Shown one piece after another: positions 14,840-57,364 of a stretch of 64,000 bases of DNA (position 1 is its first letter; the number at the start of each line of letters is the position of its first letter). The position numbers were made by a program, and so were the translations under genes. Source of the DNA: Clostridia bacterium (lineage in GTDB: Bacteria; Bacillota_A; Clostridia; Oscillospirales; CAG-272); NCBI GenBank assembly GCA_017445115.1, contig JAFSUU010000101.1, forward strand, positions 1 to 64,000. Reading direction: 5' to 3'. Under the pieces are notes generated by a model. It saw only the letters and a program-made list of their open reading frames with translations. It searched no databases and was not told the origin of the DNA.

Positions 14840-15062
14840 TCGCACACACGGCAATTCTCGGGCAAGTCTCCCGGCTTATGACGGCGGAAAATATCCGACG
14901 CTTTGCGGTCATGGTCCGCCCATCGCCTTCTCAGCTTTCGCCAATGGACGCTCCGCGGCGGTGCGGAGGATGGGAGGACGGCCGTACACGGTGACGAGAT
15001 CGCCCGGGATTTTCACCCGGTTCCTTATTGAGTCGCGGCGCATCGCCGTAACACCCGATACC
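14840..15062 (-). promoter_or_regulatory. Cobalamin riboswitch
   Basis: Read on the minus strand, the element carries the diagnostic AACCGGGTGAAAATCCCGGG segment (around 15001-15020). Near its 3' end is a near-consensus B12 box, AGCCGGGAGACTTGCC (14861-14876). Between them lies a GC-rich paired region. It ends about 65 nt before the DUF4430 start. An ATCGGC/GCCGAT mini-hairpin (about 14816-14830) could belong to the expression platform. The match to the class is clear; the exact ends are approximate. Confidence 0.88.
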
Positions 15063-15093
15063 GACTGTTTCAAAAGTAATTATTCCGAACGAA

Positions 15094-15122: not shown

Positions 15123-17765
15123 TTATTTATTCAGCTGTTTTTCAAGAATTCCTTTGACGGCTGCGAGTGCTTCGGCGAGCTTGGATATATCCTTGCCTCC
15201 GCTCATAGCGCTGTCGGGGCGTCCGCCTCCGCGTCCGTCCGTTATCGCGGCGACGTCACCGGCAAGCCTTCCTGCGTGAGCTCCCGCGGCGACTGCGTCC
15301 TTGCCGCAGCAAACTACGAAGTTCAGCTTATCGCCCGAGTGTACCGCGAGGACAGCGACGAGCGCGGCATCCTTGTCGCGGAGCTTGTCGGACATTCCGC
15401 GCGCGACGTCGGGAGCTGTGTCGCCTAGGTCTGCGGCGATGAGCTTCACGGAGCCGACGGCGACGGCGGAGTCTATCAGCTCGTCGGTCTTGCCGGACGC
15501 GAGTTTCGCGTTCAGCGCTTCGATCTGCTTCTTGAGAGAGGAGATCTCAGCCATTACGGCTGCGGCGCGGGAAGCCGTCTCGGACGGGTTGTTCGCCTTG
15601 AGAGTCTTTGCGGTCTCGGCGATGAGTCCGTCTTTTTCTTCGATGTATTTTTCAACTCCGAGGCTCGTGATGCCGGTGATCCTTCTGACGCCGGAGGCGA
15701 CGGAGGACTCGGAGATTATCTTGAACATACCGATCTCGGCGGTGTTCTTTACGTGCGTACCGCCGCAGAGCTCGATCGATCTTACGACGTCCTCGCCGCC
15801 GATCATCTTTACCATGCGGACGGTCTTGCCGTACTTCTCGCCGAAGAGCGCCATCGCGCCCTCGCGCTTTGCAGTCTCGACGTCGGTCTCGACCGTCTCA
15901 ACGGGGATAGCGGCTCTGATAGCGGCGTTGACTTCTTCCTCGACCGCCATTATCTCCTCTTTCGTCATAGCGGAGAAGTGCGAGAAGTCGAATCTGACCT
16001 CGTTTTCGTCGACGTATGAGCCCGCCTGCTCGACGTGGCTTCCGAGCACTTTTCTGAGTGCCGCCTGGAGCAGGTGAGCCGAGCTGTGGTTGCACATCGT
16101 GAGCTTTCTGATACCGGGGTTGTATGCTATTCTGACTTCGTCTCCTGCCTTGAGCGTTCCGTTGATATCGGTCACGCTGTGGATGAAGACGCCGTTTTCC
16201 TTCTTTGTGTCCGCGACTGTGGCTATCTCGTTTCCTGCGACAGAGATCGATCCGCGGTCGCCGACCTGGCCGCCGCCCTCGCCGTAGCAGACCGTCCTGT
16301 CGAGGATGATCGAAGCGGAGCCTTCCGTGACCTCGTCGACCTTTCCGTCTTCGGTGATGATCGCTATGATCTTCGCGTCGACGGACGGCTTTTCGTAGCC
16401 GAGGAATTCCGTCGCGGGAAGACCTGCGATGAGGGATTCGCCCGCGCTCTCCCAGCTGGAGCCTGCCGCTCTCGCCGATCTTGCGCGAACCTTCTGTTCG
16501 TTCATAAGCTCTGTGAAGCGGGCCTCGTCGACCTCAAAGCCCTTCTCCTCCGCGATCTCTTTCGTGAGGTCGATCGGGAAGCCGAACGTGTCGTAGAGCT
16601 TGAACGCGTCGTCGCCCGCGATGACGCCGCCCGACGCTTTTTCCATAACGCCGTTCAGGATGGAGAGTCCCTGGTCGATCGTCGCGTCGAACTTGTCCTC
16701 TTCGATGGAGAATATCTTTTCGATATAGTCGCGCTTCTCGACGAGTTCGGGATAAGCGCCGCGGTTTTCATTTATAACGACGTCGGCTACTTTCGTGAGG
16801 AACGAGCCTTTGATGCCGAGAAGTCTGCCGTGGCGCGCCGCGCGTCTCACGAGACGGCGGAGGACGTAGCCGCGGCCCTCGTTTGACGGAAGTACTCCGT
16901 CGCAGATGAGGAACACCGCCGAGCGCGTGTGGTCGGTGATGACTCTGATCGAGACGTCTTTCTTGTATTCGTCGTGATATTTTACGCCGGAGAGCTCGCA
17001 GACCTTGTCGAGGATCTTTCTGATCGTGTCGACCTCGAAAAGGTTGTCGACGCCCTGCATAACGCAGGCGAGTCTTTCGAGTCCCATGCCGGTGTCTATA
17101 TTCTTATGAGCGAGCTCGGTGTAATTGCCGTTTCCGTCGTTGTTGAACTGCGAGAAGACGTTGTTCCAGACTTCGATGTATCTGTCGCAGTCGCATCCGG
17201 GGAAGCAGGTGGGCTTGCCGCAGCCGTGCGCCTCGCCGCGGTCGAAATAGATCTCGGAGCAGGGACCGCACGGACCGCTGCCGTGCTCCCAGAAGTTGTC
17301 CTCGCGACCGAGCTTGACTATGCGCTCCGCGGGAACGCCGATCGTTTTGTTCCAGATTTCGAACGCTTCGTCGTCCTCTTTGAATACGGACGGGTAGAGA
17401 AGCTCTTCCGGAATTTCAAGCACTTTTGTCAGGTACTCCCACGCCCATGTGATAGCCTCTACCTTGAAGTAGTCGCCGAACGAGAAGTTGCCGAGCATTT
17501 CAAAATACGTGCCGTGACGGTCTGTCTTGCCGACGTTGTCGATGTCGAGGGTGCGGACGCACTTCTGACAGGTGCACATACGGCGGCGCGGGGGTTCTTC
17601 CTCGCCGGTGAAATATTTTTTGAGCGGCGCCATTCCGGCGTTTATCAGAAGAAGCGATTTGTCGCCCTGAGGGATCAGCGAGTAACTCTCGTGGCGCAGA
17701 TGTCCTTTTGACTCAAAGAATGACAGAAACGACTCTCTGAGGTCGTTTAGCGATGTCCATTTCAT
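15123..17765 (-). CDS. alaS: Alanyl-tRNA synthetase
   Basis: An 880-residue class II synthetase that charges tRNA-Ala. The N-terminus FFESKGHLRHESYSLIPQGD and the motif HGTYFEMLGNFSFGDYFK mark the catalytic domain. The tRNA-binding region follows, and the editing domain carries CNHSSAHLLQAAL and ELCGGTHVKNTAEIG with its zinc-binding His and Cys. The C-terminal C-Ala region has the usual Gly-rich GGRGGGRPDSAMSGG. Length matches bacterial AlaRS. It is transcribed from a consensus promoter; no T-box fits between that promoter and the start, unlike valS in this window. Confidence 0.97.
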   Translation of the reverse strand: MKWTSLNDLRESFLSFFESKGHLRHESYSLIPQGDKSLLLINAGMAPLKKYFTGEEEPPRRRMCTCQKCVRTLDIDNVGKTDRHGTYFEMLGNFSFGDYFKVEAITWAWEYLTKVLEIPEELLYPSVFKEDDEAFEIWNKTIGVPAERIVKLGREDNFWEHGSGPCGPCSEIYFDRGEAHGCGKPTCFPGCDCDRYIEVWNNVFSQFNNDGNGNYTELAHKNIDTGMGLERLACVMQGVDNLFEVDTIRKILDKVCELSGVKYHDEYKKDVSIRVITDHTRSAVFLICDGVLPSNEGRGYVLRRLVRRAARHGRLLGIKGSFLTKVADVVINENRGAYPELVEKRDYIEKIFSIEEDKFDATIDQGLSILNGVMEKASGGVIAGDDAFKLYDTFGFPIDLTKEIAEEKGFEVDEARFTELMNEQKVRARSARAAGSSWESAGESLIAGLPATEFLGYEKPSVDAKIIAIITEDGKVDEVTEGSASIILDRTVCYGEGGGQVGDRGSISVAGNEIATVADTKKENGVFIHSVTDINGTLKAGDEVRIAYNPGIRKLTMCNHSSAHLLQAALRKVLGSHVEQAGSYVDENEVRFDFSHFSAMTKEEIMAVEEEVNAAIRAAIPVETVETDVETAKREGAMALFGEKYGKTVRMVKMIGGEDVVRSIELCGGTHVKNTAEIGMFKIISESSVASGVRRITGITSLGVEKYIEEKDGLIAETAKTLKANNPSETASRAAAVMAEISSLKKQIEALNAKLASGKTDELIDSAVAVGSVKLIAADLGDTAPDVARGMSDKLRDKDAALVAVLAVHSGDKLNFVVCCGKDAVAAGAHAGRLAGDVAAITDGRGGGRPDSAMSGGKDISKLAEALAAVKGILEKQLNK

Positions 17766-40126: not shown

Positions 40127-40202
40127 GCTGATATGGCTCAGTTGGTAGAGCAGTTGATTCGTAATCAACAGGTCGTCGGTTCGAGTCCGACTATCAGCTC
40201 CA
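40127..40202 (+). tRNA. tRNA-Thr (anticodon CGT)
   Basis: A 76-nt cloverleaf with encoded CCA. The acceptor arms GCTGATA and TATCAGC pair fully, with discriminator T. The D arm is GCTCAGTTGGTAGAGC, the anticodon arm TTGAT-TCGTAAT-CAA has CGT at 40160-40162, and the T loop has TTCGAGT. The overall pattern resembles other bacterial tRNA-Thr(CGT), which read ACG codons. It has its own promoter and terminator. Confidence 0.96.
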
Positions 40203-40240
40203 AAAAATCGCTTTTGTCGAAAGACAAAAGCGATTTTTTG
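40203..40240 (+). terminator. Rho-independent terminator of tRNA-Thr
   Basis: AAAAATCGCTTTTGTC and GACAAAAGCGATTTTT form a long perfect stem with loop GAAA, ending in a T-run. Confidence 0.93.
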
Positions 40241-40243
40241 TAT

Positions 40244-40434
40244 CCAAGCCGACAGGCTTGGTATATCATCAACTCGCCATGCGAGTTGTATATCATCACG
40301 CCAAAGGCGTGTATATCATCACGGCAACGCCGTGTATTTTTTATACAAAGCTTCGCTTTGATGAGATACAATCCCATTCGGGATTGATGATATACAAAGC
40401 TTCGCTTTGATGATATACAACGGCTGCGCCGTTG
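40244..40434. repeat. Array 1 of eight short hairpins with constant 8-nt spacers
   Basis: Eight perfect inverted repeats with 6-8 bp stems and 3-4 nt loops: CCAAGCC/GGCTTGG, CAACTCGC/GCGAGTTG, CACGCC/GGCGTG, CACGGC/GCCGTG, CAAAGC/GCTTTG, CAATCCC/GGGATTG, CAAAGC/GCTTTG and CAACGGC/GCCGTTG. Spacers are TATATCAT three times, then a central TATTTTTTATA, then ATGAGATA and ATGATATA twice. ATGATATA is the reverse complement of TATATCAT, so spacer orientation flips at the centre. The array lies between the tRNA-Thr terminator and the 3' end of the M23-like gene. Confidence 0.9.
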
Positions 40435-40441
40435 ATGAAGA

Positions 40442-41656
40442 TTAATTCTCCTCATCCACCGGTGCATACACCCACGGGTAGCCGTAGTCGTTGCGGATCT
40501 CGATACCGTTCGGGAGAAAGAACGCTTCCCACGCGTTGAGCGCATCCGGTCCGTCGTTCTCGATCGTCATATCGGAACGGTATTTTCCTCTGTAGCAGGA
40601 GATGTGGCAGTGCTCGCCTTCGGCGTAGCCCGCGGTACCCATCTCGTAGAAAGGTTCGCCCTGGAGGATGATCTCCCCGACTGCAAGGTCGCTTATGTCG
40701 TTATCGTGCATGAACATACAGGTCATATAATCGTAGGTGCCGTCCGCGTAAAGGACTTCGTACGCGCTTTCAATCCAGACGCAGTTTCCGCTTTCCGGCT
40801 TCATCGCGGCGACGCGGCAGGTGAACGGTGCAACGACGGAGTCGCCCTCGTTTATCTGCATATCTATCGCGTTCTGCGTGAAATGCGAGTAGATGTCGTA
40901 CGGACCTTGCGTGATCATCAGCACTTTTCCTGGATATAGCGCGATCTCACCTGCGTCTCCCGCGGAATTCCCGACGTCGTCGAGACGCCATTCGTAAAGA
41001 AATCCTTCTTCGACAAAATCGGTCAGCCAGATCTCAAAACCGTTGTAGTGGAGTTCGGGAAGCGCGAGATATTTTGTTTCGTCATCGGCGAGTACGATGT
41101 ATTTCGTTCCCTCGCCGGCGTTTTTGAGAAGAAAAGACGACTGCTTTCCGCTCGCGAGGCTGTAAAGCGCGACCTTTTCGGTCACGGGATCGTACGCTAT
41201 GACTCTGTTGTATCCGCCTCTGCTGCACGCGGCATAGATCGTGTAGCTTCCGTCCTGGTTCATTGAGAATCTGAAACGCTGCGTGATATCCTGCGTGTCA
41301 TCCCAGGCGGTCAGAAGGACGCCGTCGTAATCGGAATCGGCGCCGTCGGCGTCAACGTTGAAGCATTTTCCCATCGTCGCTTCGTTTATGGTATAAAACC
41401 CGCCGTTGAAAGTTCCGTTCAGCGAACTGCTCGAAAAGTAACCGGTATCTTCGGGGGTGGCGCCTCCTCTGATCCTTGCCGCCGCGGCGTCAATGACGGA
41501 AAGCTTGTCCGTTCCGCGCGCGAGATCAACAGTCACGGCGTTTTCGTATTTTCCGATGCTCTCGTTTTTGCCGTCGGCGACCGCCGGAATACAGAACACG
41601 GACACGGCGACCGCGACTAACGTCAGAAAGAGCGTCAATATCAACGCCTTTTTCAA
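40442..41656 (-). CDS. Secreted M23-like peptidase with ricin-type lectin domain
   Basis: A 404-residue secreted protein. The signal peptide (KKALILTLFLTLVAVAVSVF, cleavage near AVA) is followed by a ricin-type beta-trefoil (~75-215) with QDITQRFRFSMNQDGSYTIY and AACSRGGYNRVIAYDP. The C-terminal part resembles M23 endopeptidases: HFTQNAIDMQINEGDSVVAP gives the first His and Asp, and EGEHCHISCYRG gives the HxH pair. Such enzymes cut peptidoglycan cross-links. TTG at 41656 is the better start: GGAGG at 41664-41668 lies 7 nt before it but only 1 nt before the ATG at 41662. Spacing to the upstream GH2 gene is 79 bp. Confidence 0.82.
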   Translation of the reverse strand: MKKALILTLFLTLVAVAVSVFCIPAVADGKNESIGKYENAVTVDLARGTDKLSVIDAAAARIRGGATPEDTGYFSSSSLNGTFNGGFYTINEATMGKCFNVDADGADSDYDGVLLTAWDDTQDITQRFRFSMNQDGSYTIYAACSRGGYNRVIAYDPVTEKVALYSLASGKQSSFLLKNAGEGTKYIVLADDETKYLALPELHYNGFEIWLTDFVEEGFLYEWRLDDVGNSAGDAGEIALYPGKVLMITQGPYDIYSHFTQNAIDMQINEGDSVVAPFTCRVAAMKPESGNCVWIESAYEVLYADGTYDYMTCMFMHDNDISDLAVGEIILQGEPFYEMGTAGYAEGEHCHISCYRGKYRSDMTIENDGPDALNAWEAFFLPNGIEIRNDYGYPWVYAPVDEEN

Positions 41657-41735
41657 ACGCATACCTCCTTTTTCAAAAACATCTATACAATTATACAATT
41701 AAAATATGAACATTTCTGCTTTTGCCGAAATTCGG

Positions 41736-43606: not shown

Positions 43607-45696
<2,090 letters not shown>

Positions 45697-45697
<1 letters not shown>

Positions 45698-57221: not shown

Positions 57222-57332
57222 ATGATATATTCCAAAGCTGACGCTTTGAAATATGATATACCGACAGCGATGCTGCCGGTATGATATCTGCCCTGCGGGC
57301 AGATGATATCCGACGCGTTGCGCCGGATGAGG
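57222..57332. repeat. Array 4 of hairpins with ATGATAT spacers
   Basis: Four hairpins: CCAAAGC/GCTTTG, ACCGACAGC/GCTGCCGGT (one mismatch), CTGCCC/GGGCAG and CCGACGC/GCGCCGG (one mismatch), loops 3-4 nt. They are separated by ATGATAT(A) in one orientation. The spacer matches the one in array 1. The array lies 40 bp upstream of the palindromic terminator of GH172. Confidence 0.85.
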
Positions 57333-57364
57333 AATATAGTCAACAAAAAAGAATATCATTTCCT

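Follow-up and report, generated by a model that had tools for sequence, protein, structure and literature searches.

What is a mirror-symmetric array of eight small hairpins doing between a tRNA gene and the next gene, and does it act as DNA or as RNA? The question arises in a 64,000-nucleotide stretch of DNA from a Clostridia bacterium (hereafter the window), in which, as a sequence-only reading had noticed, the array lies directly after tRNA-Thr and a terminator and the 3′ end of a convergent ORF meets its right side. We consider it likely, at a probability of about 0.7, that the array provides the cis-acting DNA platform for a family of mobile elements in gut Clostridia that are borne by an IVP gene and sit directly 3′ of tRNA genes. 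This reading draws on what was computed here: the layout of the arrays, the constraint on pairing, the link to IVP genes, the co-variation of linker and protein, the tRNA junction, the dispersal and the similarity across genomes.

Coordinates, linkers and fold statistics all confirmed that the array is real. Eight perfect hairpins, with stems of 6–8 bp and loops of 3–4 nt, lie within 40244–40434 (Table 1). They are joined by ATATCAT linkers whose orientation flips to ATGATAT at the middle of the array, which bears out the near-constant spacer that had been described as inverted in the right half: the left half has three copies of TATATCAT, the right half two of ATGATATA and one of ATGAGATA, and TATTTTTTATA forms the centre. 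In the whole window TATATCAT was counted 11 times, compared with 0.99 expected. The stems had been called different; they do vary, but not all of them differ, as the hairpin CAAAGCTTCGCTTTG occurs twice (hairpins 5 and 7). Likewise, the interval first given for the array does hold it but omits the terminator hairpin at 40201–40240 (T), which is part of the unit in other copies. RNA folding over 40240–40440 gave a z-score of −9.6 and single-stranded DNA folding over 40244–40434 one of −12.3, with 0/200 shuffles equally stable in either case. The predicted DNA fold branches like a tree, with left linkers paired to right ones and the hairpins as side arms. Apart from a tRNA and a cobalamin riboswitch, the window had no Rfam match at the gathering cut-off, and no IVP gene was found either adjoining the array or anywhere else in the 64 kb. 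The window copy also has no half copy of its first hairpin (H1) at the centre, unlike most copies. A second, more degenerate array with ATGATAT(A/C) linkers lies at 57222–57335 and by eye is closer to the ATGATATA class of loci L095 and L205 than to the first array. The cobalamin riboswitch (14844–15073, minus strand) is located just beyond an 880-aa ORF (15123–17765) that by eye resembles alanyl-tRNA synthetase.

Table 1. Parts of the hairpin array and its neighbours, in window coordinates.
Feature	Position	Strand	Remark
tRNA-Thr(cgt)	40127..40202	+	ARAGORN, Rfam RF00005; CCA end abuts element
Terminator hairpin T, 18-bp stem, A-run and T-run	40201..40240	.	left end of element; same position in other copies
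Hairpin H1, CCAAGCC..GGCTTGG, conserved first hairpin	40244..40261	.	
Linker TATATCAT	40262..40269	+	
Hairpin 2, 8-bp stem	40270..40288	.	
Linker TATATCAT	40289..40296	+	
Hairpin 3, 6-bp stem	40297..40311	.	
Linker TATATCAT	40312..40319	+	
Hairpin 4, 6-bp stem	40320..40334	.	
Centre TATTTTTTATA	40335..40345	.	half copy of H1 absent
Hairpin 5, 6-bp stem	40346..40360	.	
Inverted linker, variant ATGAGATA	40361..40368	-	
Hairpin 6, 7-bp stem	40369..40386	.	
Inverted linker ATGATATA	40387..40394	-	
Hairpin 7, sequence identical to hairpin 5	40395..40409	.	
Inverted linker ATGATATA	40410..40417	-	
Hairpin 8, 7-bp stem, right end of array	40418..40434	.	
Convergent ORF, 418 aa, 3′ end meets array	40442..41698	-	

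Relatives were found via LigA (window 43664–45697), using the best 80 of 318 encoding loci; the closest was 81% identical, and the nearest LigA relatives were gut or rumen Clostridia MAGs. Comparison of the window's own locus in the three nearest of these relatives, which had been proposed as a check, showed by eye that they differ: the closest (L001) carries an array of another class, with the linker GGTGAAATC, at about 145–281, and by eye no array was seen in two others, one of which (L002) has the tRNA and terminator while the contig of the other (L003) ends before any tRNA. The GGTGAAATC array of L001 lies beside a tRNA-Thr-like gene in opposite orientation, near the contig end. The linker pattern, which was also to be sought in relatives, was found there: GATGATATN{8,34}GATGATAT was present in 29/50 related genomes, up to 32 times each, where single matches are not all arrays, and a reversed-pattern control gave 0 matches. 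Window-class arrays are patchy, occurring in 24/146 genomes of one family. A phylum-wide pattern scan matched 12/398 genomes, with hairpin units visible by eye in G003 only, and no match was found in viral contigs (exact-pattern scan) or plasmids (blastn).

Copies of the array follow a recurrent plan. With T at the left, the CCA end of a tRNA is followed by T, TAT, H1, three linker-hairpin units, a centre with half of H1, three inverted units and ATT, and in most full copies H1 to the last hairpin spans ∼180 bp. Across copies H1 is of either CCAAGCC..GGCTTGG or CCATTGC..GCAATGG type. Within the window class, the half copy at the centre clearly changes together with H1: the mean match in CCAAGCC-type copies was 9.3 nt to the H1 of their own type as opposed to 4.1 nt to the other (n=47), and in CCATTGC-type copies the values were 11.2 and 3.7 nt (n=9). 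This would leave the 5′ arm of H1 two possible pairing partners, the 3′ arm and the centre. By eye, a half copy of H1 appears at the centre in other linker classes too; the cross-class test (a match of at least 7 nt in 24/70 cases compared with 78/700 other-class hairpins) was only weakly positive because the automatic choice of H1 is crude. In G031 (L149, L150, L102) we observed a variant with longer one-way arrays in several places, joined to a conserved segment, ATACCGTTTTTAACGGTAT, and then cttgcgttattcggcgtgtacg.

That selection acts on pairing and not on the stem sequence itself, as the sequence-only reading had suspected, is supported across copies. Perfect stems of at least 5 bp were present in 173/248 linker-flanked units compared with 11/4960 shuffled ones, and these 248 units comprise 164 distinct cores and 55 distinct arms. 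Among units of the form CAAnnn..nnnTTG, all three inner pairs are kept in 46/47, across eight triplet types. The alternative offered at the time, a palindrome-generating copying mechanism, need not be invoked, as identical stems reappear in different genomes and whole arrays are common to several copies.

Fuller copies continue at their right into a gene for a 23S_rRNA_IVP protein, an S23/Avd-like four-helix bundle. The linked protein belongs to PF05635 (7.5e-19, 68.4 bits, curated cut-off 33.8) and matches TIGR02436 of NCBIfam at 3.7e-21. Its predicted fold (mean pLDDT 95.1) matches the S23-family structures 2rld and 2gsc with E <0.001, and in Foldseek also the protein Avd of diversity-generating retroelements (4dwl) and complexes of these retroelements (8ub7, 8ube) with probability 1.00 and E ≥0.02, making Avd a putative structural relative. 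In the excerpts available, S23p is described as a homopentamer without an assigned function (PMC4990558), and PF05635 as Avd-like (PMC10053308) and as functionally uncharacterised (PMC11270868). PF05635 is widespread, being present in 88/146 sampled genomes of G003's family by profile search and scoring over the cut-off in 60/96 sampled genomes of another phylum.

Mirror arrays, called as a mirror-symmetric repeated 7-mer within 500 nt, were located upstream of 46/69 IVP genes compared with 1/633 control ORFs (p 2e-53; shuffles 0/1380), and the single positive control is the L054 array itself. These 69 genes were fetched via PF05635 and have at least 300 nt upstream; their subset L242–L281 was hand-picked in roughly descending score, passing over some genes close to contig ends and a few more, and 4/88 IVP ORFs were dropped for short flanks. 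No array was detected for the other 23/69. With IVPs of two other phylum samples there were 0/30 and 0/30 mirror arrays, and 0/18 in a mixed set, some of whose hits are duplicates or have short flanks. In the wider class arrays occurred at 6/29 IVP loci (the 30th was dropped for a short flank), all six with a short N-terminus by eye. In some other phyla (L312, L313, L319, L322), IVP genes are preceded not by mirror arrays but by short direct repeats in tandem, with units such as AGTCGAA or TCAGTAG, and chains of at least four direct copies were counted, without a control, at 5/30 and 7/30 loci of two phyla and at 3/29 of the wider class.

At its left end the element recurrently adjoins a tRNA gene. 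By hand count T lies at most 2 nt from a tRNA 3′ end in 35/69 H1-bearing window-class copies, a de-duplicated set in which a few are cut by contig ends and one is an internal hairpin. The adjoining tRNAs are of many isoacceptors and are always directed toward the element; the sole reverse-strand tRNA listed in the 400 nt upstream is 245 nt distant (L132). A same-strand tRNA ends within 120 nt before the first linker in 41/68 arrayed IVPs, whereas one lies within 900 nt of 6/123 unarrayed IVPs; this set mixes protein-fetched and pattern-fetched loci, and 19/210 IVPs were left out for short flanks. Two copies in G006, 99% identical over 185 nt, have the terminator hairpin in common after tRNA-Ser and tRNA-Tyr, respectively. 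In four of five classes, mean DNA identity between copies was 72–76% for the array and 78–84% for the IVP gene, falling to 57–59% right after the IVP stop codon and to 53–59% on the tRNA side. The GTGATAT class is an exception, as its identity persists past the stop codon (85% over 100 nt). A duplicated tRNA 3′ end at the right border, which a few flanks had suggested by eye, was rejected: a T-arm-like motif occurred in 1/58 right flanks and in 2/58 control windows further right.

Before the IVP start codon, all nine window-class IVPs (9/9) have a promoter-like TTGAAT/TTGATT – TATAAT-like site, with an exact TATAAT at 17 nt in 7/9, as found with a loose pattern without chance control whose −35 box overlaps the array end in L120 and L133. 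The array probably lies outside both the tRNA transcript and the IVP transcript, from which we infer a role at the DNA level.

Arrays differ in their linker word, which is 7–11 nt long across classes and includes AATGATG, GTGAAGT, GTGATAT, GCTAAATT, ATGAAGC, TGAAATA, ATGAATTG, CATTATTCAT, ATGATATA and the window's GTATATCATCA. In G459 and in G478 several classes coexist. When mapped onto a tree of 56 IVPs, hand-assigned linker classes change 16 times, where the minimum is 14 and shuffled classes averaged 42.0 changes with 0/200 as low; these classes were assigned with the protein N-termini in view and with similar words merged, and 56/59 rows were used, leaving out two unclear words and one short protein. 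With machine-chosen words, linker and protein similarity correlated with r 0.63 (1653 pairs, 58 rows), and among pairs below 70% identity r was 0.39 (1472 pairs), with 0/2000 permutations as high in both cases. Linker and protein might also co-vary just by being passed on jointly, with no need for binding. The sequence-only reading had no means of seeing the association with the IVP gene, the tRNA junction that recurs among copies or the class-specific linkers.

We next considered mobility. For nine of ten pairs among five genomes, LigA was 56–63%, IVP protein 82–90% and array DNA 70–90% identical, and the tenth pair had 71, 95 and 85%, respectively. Within genomes, 30/101 array pairs were at least 80% identical. 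In 29 of these 30, the flanks were near background (left 46–71%, with one unmeasured, and right 33–72%, compared with 57 and 56%), and the remaining pair is a tandem duplication. Copies that resemble each other in unlike flanks, together with a higher identity between genomes for arrays and IVPs than for LigA, make the elements look mobile. All sampled genomes with an IVP at least 85% identical to a window-class IVP (9/9) carry at least two window-class matches, compared with 11/137 others, a count that is partly circular because the probe IVPs sit beside arrays; incomplete MAGs may account for part of the 11 array-bearing genomes without such an IVP. No clean empty site was found. Among 16 array or IVP genomes (MAGs), the reverse transcriptase domain RVT_1 was present in 4, with none in the array-rich G003, G519 and G551, and Y1_Tnp (PF01797) in 8; as far as MAGs can show, either enzyme was thus rejected as an obligatory partner.

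A downstream ORF of at least 50 aa overlaps the IVP stop codon in ATGA-type fashion in 19/71 arrayed IVPs, 14 of these ORFs being at least 100 aa, compared with 15/113 unarrayed IVPs and 48/713 other ORFs. One downstream gene is common to L277, L260, L351 and L264, behind different IVP types. L238 (GTGAAGT class) and L200 (window-class IVP) share a downstream gene that is 85% identical, whereas their IVPs are 37% identical over 71 residues; L186 and L263 also share one (64%, with IVPs at 54%). Only the L238/L200 pair clearly requires an exchange of cargo, and in the other cases the divergence of cargo and IVP is about what common descent could give. A Shine-Dalgarno-like word was seen in the last 36 nt of 26/74 arrayed IVP genes compared with 12/115 others, which fits translational coupling to the downstream gene.

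Known systems resemble these elements in part. REP elements and BIMEs with RAYT transposases consist of palindromes that are scattered outside genes, close to transcript ends, and arranged in inverted pairs, and the palindromic stem of REP elements is conserved. Our arrays are likewise dispersed, extragenic, paired inverted palindromes near transcript ends, but they conserve the linker while their stems vary; the 164 cores and 55 arms in 248 units, together with a Y1 transposase in 8/16 genomes, speak against a REP/BIME system with RAYT. CRISPR arrays have repeats of ∼20–50 nt and non-palindromic unique spacers, and were rejected given a repeat word of 7–11 nt and inter-linker units that are perfect hairpins in 173/248 cases. 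In tRNA-integrated islands (ICE-like) the tRNA 3′ end is the junction. The arrays share this left junction (35/69 with T within 2 nt) and possibly cargo, but no repeat of the tRNA 3′ end appears at their far side (a T-arm-like motif in 1/58 right flanks). The predicted likeness of IVP to Avd brings diversity-generating retroelements to mind; RVT_1 in 4/16 genomes (MAGs) argues against this assignment.

The closest known systems are IVP-encoding rRNA intervening sequences. According to the available excerpts on the Coxiella IVS (PMC4990558) and on CPR rRNA insertions (PMC11270868), they encode the same protein family, PF05635, and, like the arrays, place DNA that can form hairpins at loci of structured RNAs, exist with or without an ORF (PMC11270868) and are scattered in a way for which horizontal transfer is proposed. 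Unlike them, the arrays adjoin tRNA genes instead of lying inside rRNA, and form multi-hairpin mirror arrays with class-specific linkers, an own promoter-like site and downstream cargo. By location, an rRNA intervening sequence was rejected, as 41/68 arrayed IVPs follow a tRNA, the window copy follows tRNA-Thr and the window contains no rRNA. The sequence-only reading knew of no named element with this layout, and we found none either: besides the missing Rfam match, no description was found in the open-access literature searched (subscription papers could hold one). We therefore call the element layout new; the protein family is already known.

Could the array instead serve the host? As a BIME-like DNA element, it would be a supercoil buffer, a gyrase or nucleoid-protein site or a transcription insulator after highly transcribed tRNA genes, with IVP as its binding protein. 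Its placement between a tRNA terminator and the next gene and the many arrays without an adjoining IVP gene would suit such a role, but we regard it as unlikely, given the patchy presence in one family (24/146 genomes), the high similarity between genomes distant by LigA, the several classes per genome (G459, G478) and the window locus itself, which has a different class in L001 and by eye no array in L002 or L003 (where the contig ends before the tRNA). Improbable to a higher degree is a structured non-coding RNA or 3′ stability element that is transcribed from the right and ended by the shared terminator. Perfect pairing is maintained through compensatory changes, the RNA fold is strong, and T, with its A-run and T-run, could terminate transcripts from both sides; against this, there is no Rfam match, by eye no promoter directed into the array was seen, and T stands between tRNA and array. 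Because T separates the tRNA from the array, at or past whose far end the IVP promoter-like site is found, a stable transcript, which had been suggested as something to look for, appears less likely than a DNA-level role.

Least credible of all is a passive repeat, in which case the array would be the MITE of some ordinary transposase and IVP genes no more than common neighbours. Dispersal and the many IVP-less copies would be expected of such a repeat, but the association of 46/69 compared with 1/633 and the match between linker and IVP similarity would not, and neither RVT_1 (4/16) nor Y1_Tnp (8/16) is constant.

Overall, our preferred reading of the array as the DNA platform of an IVP-borne mobile element suggests a model where the full element comprises the terminator hairpin, the mirror hairpin array, a promoter and the IVP gene, and would end close to the stop codon of the IVP; in a minority this codon overlaps the start of a variable downstream (cargo) gene. 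An IVP oligomer may recognise its own linker class, probably on one strand or on a cruciform folded to a tree by pairing of left with right linkers; such pairing, involving at least half of the left-linker bases, was predicted in 43/53 copies. The IVP–array complex would then move or maintain the element, and IVP-less copies, including that of the window, may be non-autonomous or relic derivatives. A more specific version, to which we give somewhat less than even odds, is a new kind of mobile element that has no known catalytic enzyme: class-specific linkers on a single-strand hairpin tree would be read by an S23/Avd-like pentamer, which would set array and gene down at the 3′ ends of tRNA genes and swap translationally coupled cargo. 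If true, this reading would give the IVP family a function, and the co-variation of linker word and protein offers a testable recognition code. If that code holds, it would name the cognate DNA of an S23/Avd-type protein, define a new class of tRNA-anchored mobile elements and provide a route for downstream genes to move among rumen and gut bacteria.
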